A DNA stretch of 37,150 bases from positions 1 through 37,150 of the forward strand of contig JACRHZ010000051.1 of NCBI GenBank assembly GCA_016220175.1, given 5' to 3'. The notes below the pieces were generated by a model. That model did no database searches. It saw only the letters and a program-made list of their open reading frames with translations, and was not told where the DNA came from. The translations under genes were made by a program, and so were the position numbers. This DNA comes from Candidatus Peregrinibacteria bacterium. GTDB taxonomy: Bacteria > Patescibacteriota > Gracilibacteria > CAIRYL01. Below, in pieces: positions 35,354 to 37,150 of the stretch; the first letter of the stretch is position 1, and each line of letters opens with the position of its first letter.

Positions 35354-36814
35354 ATGATCTCATTTGATATCGCTCCTCGAATAAATCGACGGAAACAAGC
35401 AGTTTTTTTCCCGTTTTTTAAAGAAGATGCAAAAAAATCCCTACGAAAGGCTTTTCGGGGACTCTCTTCTGTCCAAAAAAGAGCAGTTCGAAAAACATTA
35501 GAGTCAGGACGATTTCCCGCTTCAGGAGTTCTCCCTGTATTCTCAAATGATGCTCCTGTTTTTATCCAACTTCTCGGAGAGAAAAAAAAATTCACAACAC
35601 GAGAGGCAAGAGAGATAGGAGAAAGCCTCCATTCCACTGCTGCAAAATTTGAGGTGGAACAAGCTGCAGCTCTTTCCGGAGTTTTAAAAAAAGACCAATG
35701 GAAAGCTTTCCAAGAAGGGATCGTGCTCGGGCTCTATGAATTTGTTCACTGGAAAGGGGCAAAAAAATCTGAAGACTCAAAAAAGAAAAATGAGAAAGAA
35801 AAAAAACTTTCTCATGTACAAATTGTTGGACCGAAAGATGCATCCTGGGAAAAACAATTAAAAACTCTTTTTGAAGCCGTAAAATATACAAAGGATTTAA
35901 TCAATGAACCTCCGAACGTTGCAACTCCGAGTTATTTGGAAAAAATAGCTCGTGAAATCACAAAAAACCTTTCTCATGTCTCCATCGAAGTTCTCAGAGA
36001 AAAAGAACTTATCAAACTTGGATGTGGTGGAATTCTTGCGGTTGGTTTGGGGAGTGAGGAAGAATCACGACTTCTTCTTCTCAAGTATTCTGGAGGAAAA
36101 AAAGAGGCACCACTCGCTCTCGTCGGGAAAGGGGTGACATATGATAGCGGTGGACTCAACACCAAAGGACAATATATGCGGACGATGAAACAAGATTTGG
36201 GTGGCGCGGCAACAGTGCTTGGCGCTTTTTTTGCACTCGCAAAAACCAAAGTGAAAAAAAATATTATTGCAGCCATCCCTGCTGTTGAAAATCTCATTAG
36301 TGCAAAATCCTACAAACCGGATGATGTTCTCCGAATGTATAATGGGAAAACTGTTGAAATCACGAATACTGATGCTGAAGGACGACTTATTCTTGCAGAT
36401 GCGCTTGCATACGTAGAAAAACGCTATTCTCCACGGGCAATAGTAGATATGGCGACTCTTACCGGAGGCTGTGTGTATGCCGTGGGAAACGATATTGTCG
36501 CTCTCCTTGGAAAAAATTCTCAAATGGTTGCCGCACTTTTGGAATCTTCGAAGTCTGTTGATGAACCGCTTTGGGAACTCCCGATCCACGATCGCTATGA
36601 ACAGAATCTTGAATCAAAGATAGCAGACATTGTAAATGCTTCAGGGAAAATGAAAGCGATGGTAATTGAAGGAGCGCTCTTCCTTCAGCATTTTGTTACA
36701 GAGAAAACACCATGGTGTCATCTTGATATCGCCTCTGTGACGTTTGATGAAAATTTAGGAATGGCAACCGGAAGAAATGTGCGCCTTCTTTGGGATTTTG
36801 TGGAAAAATATTAG
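35354..36814 (+). CDS. pepA: M17 leucyl aminopeptidase
   Basis: Cytosolic zinc or manganese aminopeptidase that trims N-terminal residues. The 486-residue product has the M17 two-domain layout. The N-terminal macrodomain-like part (1-160) is lysine-rich, with EDSKKKNEKEKK at its end. The catalytic domain carries the conserved GKGVTYDSGGLNTKGQYMRTMKQDLGGAATVLGA (metal Lys/Asp and bicarbonate-site region) and ITNTDAEGRLILADALAYVEKRY, the NTDAEGRL signature. PRAIVDMATLTGGCVYAVG and LWELPIHDRYEQNLESKIADIVN follow. E. coli PepA also binds DNA in cer recombination; I do not claim that here. The TAG stop is directly followed by a 122-bp inverted-repeat element. Confidence 0.95.
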   Translation: MISFDIAPRINRRKQAVFFPFFKEDAKKSLRKAFRGLSSVQKRAVRKTLESGRFPASGVLPVFSNDAPVFIQLLGEKKKFTTREAREIGESLHSTAAKFEVEQAAALSGVLKKDQWKAFQEGIVLGLYEFVHWKGAKKSEDSKKKNEKEKKLSHVQIVGPKDASWEKQLKTLFEAVKYTKDLINEPPNVATPSYLEKIAREITKNLSHVSIEVLREKELIKLGCGGILAVGLGSEEESRLLLLKYSGGKKEAPLALVGKGVTYDSGGLNTKGQYMRTMKQDLGGAATVLGAFFALAKTKVKKNIIAAIPAVENLISAKSYKPDDVLRMYNGKTVEITNTDAEGRLILADALAYVEKRYSPRAIVDMATLTGGCVYAVGNDIVALLGKNSQMVAALLESSKSVDEPLWELPIHDRYEQNLESKIADIVNASGKMKAMVIEGALFLQHFVTEKTPWCHLDIASVTFDENLGMATGRNVRLLWDFVEKY

Positions 36815-36936
36815 GGAAACTCTGATAAATGCGAACTACTTCGTCATCTGCGACCAAAAATTCCTCGCCGTACATTGAGTACGACTGCGGATTTTTGGTC
36901 TTGATTCCTCGTATTTCATCATTTCTCAGAGTTTCC
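36815..36936. repeat. 122-bp quasi-palindromic element directly behind pepA (MITE- or terminator-like)
   Basis: It begins GGAAACTCTGA (36815-36825) and ends TCAGAGTTTCC (36926-36936), a perfect 11-bp inverted repeat. Inside, GACCAAAAATTCCTCGCCGTAC and GTACGACTGCGGATTTTTGGTC are near inverted copies around ATTGA. The flanks between also pair partly, so the whole element can fold into one long hairpin. It has no T-run after the stem. Terminal inverted repeats and lack of coding content fit a miniature transposable element, but no target-site duplication is evident, and a copy elsewhere in the genome would be needed. Confidence 0.75.
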
Positions 36937-37067
36937 GTGTTCCTGCTTTCTCTGTGATGATCTTTACTTTTTTCTATTTATCAGTATTTCCTTAGCTCGT
37001 TACAATTTCGGATCAGGCAATAATTTGCTGGACTGATGTAGAATGGGGGAGGATTTTTTTTGGAGGT

Positions 37068-37150
37068 ATGAATATTCAAGAACAAGAATTTCTTCAGCTT
37101 TTTCTTCCTGAAGGAATTCTGCAGTGGTTTGATGTGATACAAGGAGAAAA
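37068..37150 (+). CDS. Transposase, N-terminal fragment (3' end outside the window)
   Basis: An ATG at 37068-37070 opens MNIQEQEFLQLFLPEGIL followed by QWFDVIQGEK to the edge. The LLPEGIL-x-x-F-[DE]-[IV] segment resembles the N-terminal region of ISAon1-type transposases. Only 27 residues are visible, so the family call is tentative. Unlike nearly every gene in this window, it is preceded by purine-rich GGGGGAGGA and GGAGG, consistent with an acquired element. I cannot locate the left inverted repeat with confidence. Confidence 0.5.
   Translation, partial: MNIQEQEFLQLFLPEGILQWFDVIQGE

Follow-up and report, generated by a model that had tools for sequence, protein, structure and literature searches.

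A MITE-like hairpin insertion at the pepA stop codon of a Peregrinibacteria genome, its family in Patescibacteria and Clostridia and its probable relation to ERIC

Directly behind the stop codon of a gene named pepA lies a 122-bp inverted repeat, which raises the question whether this element is a MITE moved by a transposase from elsewhere, or a large RNA hairpin protecting the 3' end of the pepA mRNA. Both readings had been offered by the initial annotation of the window, i.e., the whole stretch of 37,150 nucleotides analyzed here, which is the complete contig C51 of its genome (G000). With a probability of about 0.8, the whole is best explained as a non-autonomous MITE-like insertion of 177 bp at the TTAG of the pepA stop, belonging to a family of Patescibacteria and Clostridia which is probably related to the enterobacterial ERIC repeat.

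The palindrome itself was confirmed. Its outer arms of 17 nt are 94% complementary and free of mismatches over the first 11 positions, in line with the perfect 11-bp ends described before, and the inner near-palindrome centered on GTAC-ATTGA-GTAC consists of two arms (36852-36873 and 36879-36900) with 77% complementarity. The element starts directly after the TAG of pepA (36812-36814) and no ORF of at least 60 aa overlaps the palindrome, both as initially annotated. The RNA fold of the palindrome was predicted at -42.7 kcal/mol compared to -21.6 +/- 3.1 kcal/mol for shuffled sequences (z -6.75), and 0 of 200 shuffles were as stable. At the gathering score, no family of Rfam 15 was found on the element in the window and in the loci with further members, while tRNA and rRNA genes elsewhere passed. 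The extent of 36815-36936 given in the initial annotation proved to be too short. The perfect 4-bp duplication TTAG encloses positions 36815-36991 and not 36815-36936, therefore the inserted unit is 177 bp long and consists of the palindrome, a spacer of 38 bp and a third end sequence (Table 1). The contig ends 159 bases past this unit.

Table 1. Features of the insertion behind pepA (positions in the window).
Feature	Positions	Strand	Remarks
486-aa ORF, pepA (named so by the initial annotation)	35354..36814	+	stop codon is the insertion site
Left target duplication TTAG	36811..36814		ends with the TAG that serves the upstream gene as stop codon
122-bp imperfect palindrome, core of the family	36815..36936	-	motif TACGAGGAANCAAG ... 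GATGACGAAGTAG on the minus strand; 130.5 bits with covariance model R1
End sequence 1, GGAAACTCTGATAAATG	36815..36831	+	outer end of the unit
End sequence 2, inner copy	36920..36936	-	closes the hairpin by pairing with end sequence 1
38-bp spacer	36937..36974		mostly unalignable between copies of the own genome
End sequence 3, GGAAATACTGATAAATA	36975..36991	-	other outer end of the unit
Right target duplication TTAG	36992..36995		

Further copies were found in the same genome (1.49 Mb, 79 contigs). BLAST revealed three more full-length copies of the 122-bp palindrome with 83-89% identity and one altered copy of 78 bp, and 7 matches were obtained with a covariance model (E<=1e-4), including two more divergent copies on contigs C26 and C8. 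All five BLAST copies carry an extra end sequence (11-14 of 16 letters) 51-56 bp beyond one end, always on the same side relative to the conserved motif. In the divergent copies L019 and L095 this outer end is absent at the expected distance. Using the outer end as border, three of the five BLAST copies are flanked by perfect 4-bp duplications (TTAG, TTGA, TTTA); one of the remaining two agrees in 3 of 4 bp and the other shows no duplication. In this genome the signal is clear with the outer end as part of the unit. With the boundaries of the 122-bp palindrome no duplication is visible by eye in these copies, and class-wide there is a weak excess of equal 4-mers (5 of 64 cases compared to 0.7 expected).

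Genome G220 contains 14 matches to the left end, 11 of which carry the palindrome and are nearly identical, one of these being cut by the contig end. The unit has a length of 168 bp here. Nine complete units were measured and five of them show perfect duplications (TACT, TTGC, CTTC, TTTG, ATAT); a tenth unit, L187, has an imperfect duplication by eye. Judged from random flanking 4-mers, a perfect agreement is expected by chance with a probability of about 0.005 per copy in the own genome and about 0.0046 in G220. The outer end is missing from 2 of the 10 palindromes of G220 that were fetched by the model (L157, L160). For other genomes, the palindrome of 122 bp appears to make up the entire unit, like in L108 with CTTG and L109 with CTAA on both sides. 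Over the whole duplication comparison, only 8 of 71 rows show a perfect 4-bp duplication.

The 38-nt spacer (36937-36974 in the window) can hardly be aligned among the own copies L001-L005, in contrast to their palindromes and to the duplications still intact in three of the five, whereas the equivalent stretch is conserved in G220. In the latter genome, L189 (G220:C47:71541) appears as a mini-derivative which retained the outer end and the spacer, lacks the palindrome and seemingly ends in the last bases of the other end. L176 and L179 are truncated pieces.

Comparison with relatives in another genus revealed a clean empty site at one of seven sites (L058). Genome G079 reads GCTTAGAAATCC at this place, and G097 reads GCTTAG-element-TTAGAAATCC with TTAG on both sides. 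Two genomes lack any element at the site of L049, with no clear duplication, and in G097 a remnant of its right half is left. The relatives compared carry a remnant at the site of L054, another subfamily at L104 and other sequence at L053 and L101; at L098 one genome has no element, another a trace and a third a chimeric-looking copy. Loss and replacement thus occur too. At one and the same place, L134 (1379-1500, G079) and L104 (G097) belong to different subfamilies, of the AAGGCGGCAGG and the AAGGAAACAAG type, which is either a replacement or a repeated insertion at one site.

The family was identified in at least 89 of 353 genomes of the class (R1, E<=1e-4), at least 41 of the 379 genomes sampled across the phylum (R2, E<=1e-5; ten in the class including the own genome and 31 outside) and at least 36 of 391 genomes of a sample of Clostridia, the class of Clostridium bornimense, with that genome included (R3). 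R1, R2 and R3 are covariance models, R3 being based on copies of Patescibacteria and Clostridium with ERIC left out. The three counts are lower bounds since about ten candidates per genome were scored, and the matches listed in the R2 and R3 surveys reached about 40 bits or more. Among named genomes, only four stretches matched the pattern, with the titles Peregrinibacteria, Peribacteria, Gracilibacteria and Clostridium bornimense; the first three belong to Patescibacteria. In Clostridium bornimense (L072, 1-1400) a single contig carries five copies amid tRNA genes: three stand in tandem with a period of 123 bp, and the other two are interleaved with the tRNA genes. No match to the core pattern was found in viral contigs.

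Taken as a MITE, the element is short, has inverted ends, lacks coding capacity and occurs in dispersed copies with target site duplication. The initial annotation had named a single copy without conservation in relatives as the finding that speaks against this reading; the element was found in multiple copies and is conserved in relatives. Together with the inverted ends, the 4-bp duplications and the clean empty site, this supports the MITE reading. The element of 177 bp, with the 122-bp hairpin and its conserved GA-containing sequence in the internal loops as core, would have been inserted at the TTAG which contains the pepA stop and would have duplicated these 4 bp, presumably through an enzyme supplied in trans which cuts at the outer ends. 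The pepA stop would stay intact after such an insertion, and the pepA mRNA would enter the hairpin directly.

An autonomous partner IS was not detected by end-sequence patterns in the own genome and in G220. Among the genomes G220, G063, G248, G249 and G069 these patterns matched in G220 only, and the matches in G220 and the own genome are family members, truncated pieces and apparent chance hits. The IS5 subgroup uses a YTAR target. An origin from it was suggested by the first duplications but dropped once the duplications CTTC, TTGC and TTTG appeared. The open frame of L019 which ends in a stop was considered as the C-terminus of a transposase and likewise dropped, as its peptide has no match in Pfam or NCBIfam.

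The fold of the hairpin is conserved over the family. By blastn, matches were obtained in 6 of 99 genomes, the own one being among those searched. A search with paired loop motifs revealed 13 stretches, 12 of which are members with a like arrangement (L002 is cut short) and one of which (L023) is a chance match. In the first consensus 30 of 43 pairs showed changes on both sides. Alignment A7 comprises 62 rows, among them Clostridium copies. Here 93.4% of the cells are paired, compared to 69.2% in shuffled controls and 34-43% with the partner slid, and both-sided changes are seen in 38 of 42 base pairs; these figures are favored by the fitting of this alignment to the structure. The most conserved letters among 45 rows are located at or next to the loops, with A-G-G and A..A on one side and ACG.AG on the other, and GA is conserved on both flanks of the apical stem.

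In addition, we analyzed the placement of the family relative to genes. ORFs of at least 90 aa were called mechanically. Of 70 copies, 10 were removed as orthologous duplicates, leaving 60 copies. Only three of them are located inside an ORF. The right-hand gene, right as read on the motif strand, is opposite in 42 of the 57 others. Its stop is no more than 3 nt away from the right end in 28 of these 42 cases, compared to about 10.6 expected under uniform placement in the gap. The left end is near a stop in 5 of 31 cases. For right-hand opposite genes, the same adjacency was found in 4 of 9 cases outside the class and in 5 of 13 in Clostridia, both small sets. The start of the element right after the stop codon of pepA thus turns out to be a family trait. 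In L083 and L101 the terminal bases of the element even form the stop codon, with a matching change on the other arm. Young copies are seldom found at stops (1 of 9 in G220 and 1 of 6 examined in the own genome), so that the placement is explained more simply by retention of copies there, with an insertion preference as the alternative. L053 (1501-1622, G085) is a member located in frame in a protein gene, to which it adds about 40 residues; in relatives the gene has different and shorter sequence at this place.

Orthologous copies are more similar to each other than both of their 400-nt flanks in 9 of 10 pairs, at 6 of 7 loci; the exception is the pair L099/L107, which is less conserved than its flanks. 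The placement at stop codons and the slow evolution of most orthologous copies suggest, as far as sequence comparison goes, a role at the 3' end of mRNA. The hairpin would be transcribed as the 3' end of the pepA mRNA, and copies might be retained at gene ends as the hairpin sets the local fate of the mRNA. In Yersinia, ERIC at the 3' end of genes is described to lower the stability of upstream transcripts via an exposed RNase E site (PMC2229807, PMC10969869). Because of the destabilization reported there (PMC2229807), the protection of the pepA mRNA proposed by the initial annotation is not the better guess. By analogy, our best guess would be an ERIC-like 3'-end effect on the mRNA, in one direction or the other.

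Several other explanations have to be weighed against this mobile element. An immobile non-coding RNA or 3'-UTR hairpin, conserved and spread by vertical descent, would fit the strong covariation and the orthologous copies, which persist between species and surpass their flanks in similarity in nine of ten pairs. It is hard to reconcile with the dispersed, near-identical copies of G220 with different 4-bp duplications, the clean empty site at L058 and the duplications of the own genome; it is already refuted for young copies and we consider it highly unlikely. It is very improbable as well that the element is of the REPIN type and owes its movement to a RAYT (Y1) transposase. The own genome (1.49 Mb) does contain nine Y1_Tnp (RAYT-like) matches (L025-L032 and C75), and the element is palindromic, dispersed and non-coding. 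However, none of the eight Y1 loci examined of these nine holds a family member by R1, and the 4-bp duplications of this family stand against a REPIN movement, which is not known to leave a target duplication.

The covariation itself might also result from correction of the palindrome at the DNA level by template switching instead of selection on the hairpin. Its strongest argument is the outer helix, where changes on both sides occur with hardly any on one side only (37 compared to 0 at columns 5/137). This is unusual for stepwise RNA evolution, with its route over G-U, and suggests that the arms often change together. Against it stand the unpaired loop letters, which are conserved in 39-45 of 45 rows at twelve columns, and the elements that outconserve their flanks in 9 of 10 orthologous pairs. 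On the motif strand, moreover, G-U pairs exceed A-C pairs (98 compared to 30 in the first 71 rows of alignment A6), a count in which few columns dominate and the rows, and thus the cells, are not independent. We regard template switching in place of selection as possible, though less likely than not, and part of the covariation could stem from it.

The family was compared with ERIC because its loop pattern resembled that of the enterobacterial repeat. ERIC copies were taken from records of E. coli, Klebsiella aerogenes and Rahnella; six loci were searched, which represent five distinct places since L074 and L203 coincide. ERIC was not recognized significantly by R1 (5.5 bits) or R2 (14.5 bits), and one unrelated stretch outscored ERIC in the test of R2. 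R3 ranked ERIC first in all six loci with 35.5, 22.7, 20.6, 19.3, 16.7 and 15.0 bits, whereas the best other match in these loci reached 9.6 bits. The matches have the same orientation and cover 112-129 nt. The best locus has an E of 1.9e-7, and E<1e-4 was reached in this one of six loci only. This ERIC is also the sole R3 match with E<=1 in the whole 770-kb record of K. aerogenes (E 3.2e-5), and no R3 match was found in the 617-kb record of Rahnella. As control, R3 gave no match with E<=1 under default filters in 98.5 kb of element-free loci. With the filters off, the best matches in 61.7 kb of element-free loci reached 21.9 and 21.4 bits (E 0.007 and 0.010); the three best places were short or partial hairpin matches of 43-83 nt, and matches of at least 95 nt reached only 14.3 bits. 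The five lower ERIC scores are within or near the reach of such unrelated hairpins.

ERIC, also called IRU or RU-1, is like the family a long imperfect hairpin of intergenic location, and the family has the size and form of ERIC, a palindromic hairpin of about 127 nt. The loop letters are similar as well, with AGG..GCAAG on the 5' side, GA/GA around the apical stem and a GCAGCC..CG type on the 3' side. In five distinct loci the right end of ERIC, with the boundaries of R3, lies 0, 7, 8, 7 and 55 nt from the stop of the opposite annotated gene, and thus near this stop in four of them, like in the family. ERIC itself has a TA target and TA termini. For such elements in general, TA at the termini is the most common description (PMC2229807). 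The duplications CTTC, TTGC and TTTG lack TA; TA is enriched near the ends of the family (13 and 15 of 64 compared to 2.8 expected), yet not general. Unlike ERIC, the family shows 4-bp duplications at its young copies, and in two genomes its unit is longer and includes a third end sequence. Its range differs too, ERIC being reported in Enterobacteriaceae and Vibrionaceae (PMC10969869).

It is possible, at somewhat less than even odds, that this resemblance is a convergence on the hairpin form and not a sign of common descent. The single locus below E 1e-4, the missing significance with R1 and R2 and the 21.9 bits of an unrelated hairpin under R3 are all consistent with convergence. Against it stand the full-length alignments with identical loop letters at equivalent structural places, the ERIC of 35.5 bits which is alone in 770 kb, as well as the gene context: the right-hand gene is opposite in all five distinct loci, and in four its stop and the end of ERIC are 0-8 nt apart. 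Common descent with ERIC is favored as the probable explanation, but not proven. Tentatively, the elements of ERIC, Patescibacteria and Clostridia might form one ancient superfamily of hairpins of about 120 nt, with the GA-rich loops as putative recognition site for a widely shared protein. Old copies would then be kept at stop codons as 3'-end elements of mRNA, and co-ordinated changes of both arms would let the terminal bases supply the stop of the host gene.

Other known elements were compared by their description. Rickettsia palindromic elements (RPE) are palindromic like the family and are given with a length of 105-146 bp (PMC2229807); L053 resembles them by its position in frame in a protein gene, but only 3 of 60 family copies are located inside an ORF. 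Correia/NEMIS, RUP and other bacterial MITEs share short length, lack of coding capacity, inverted ends, target duplication and dispersal. For RUP, an IS630 partner has been proposed and a TA target is given (PMC2229807), whereas the family has no partner by end-sequence patterns. YPAL/RU-2 of Yersinia, described with about 168 bp, internal inverted repeats and duplications of 3 to 26 bp (PMC2229807), is similar in its length and internal repeats and different in the variable duplications. Among the literature matches listed for repeats of Patescibacteria/CPR and for ERIC-Clostridium, no title deals with this family or with a link to ERIC.

Strain typing has made use of ERIC for a long time. 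One model now recognizes an ERIC and finds young, duplication-flanked copies in Patescibacteria and multicopy relatives in Clostridia. According to a review of 2007, IS-like ends of such elements were not found except for RUP, and their transposase-driven movement was without experimental support (PMC2229807). The question what moves ERIC becomes a comparative one, i.e., which gene is common to the genomes with young copies. In addition, a phylum-wide set of hairpins at stop codons is supplied, on which a 3'-end role is testable.

To the right of the element, an open frame starts at 37068-37150 (MNIQEQEFLQLFLPEG...) and is cut by the contig end; it weakly resembles the N-terminus of an ISAon1 transposase (E 0.06, below the cut-off). 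This ISAon1-like gene was considered as partner of the element and set aside, its flank being different and partly recurring near other contig ends. In front of the frame, a stretch of 23-29 bp at 37004-37032 is found again on contigs C46 and C48, in each case at a distance of 119 bases from a contig end, which indicates that the assembly may break at this IS.
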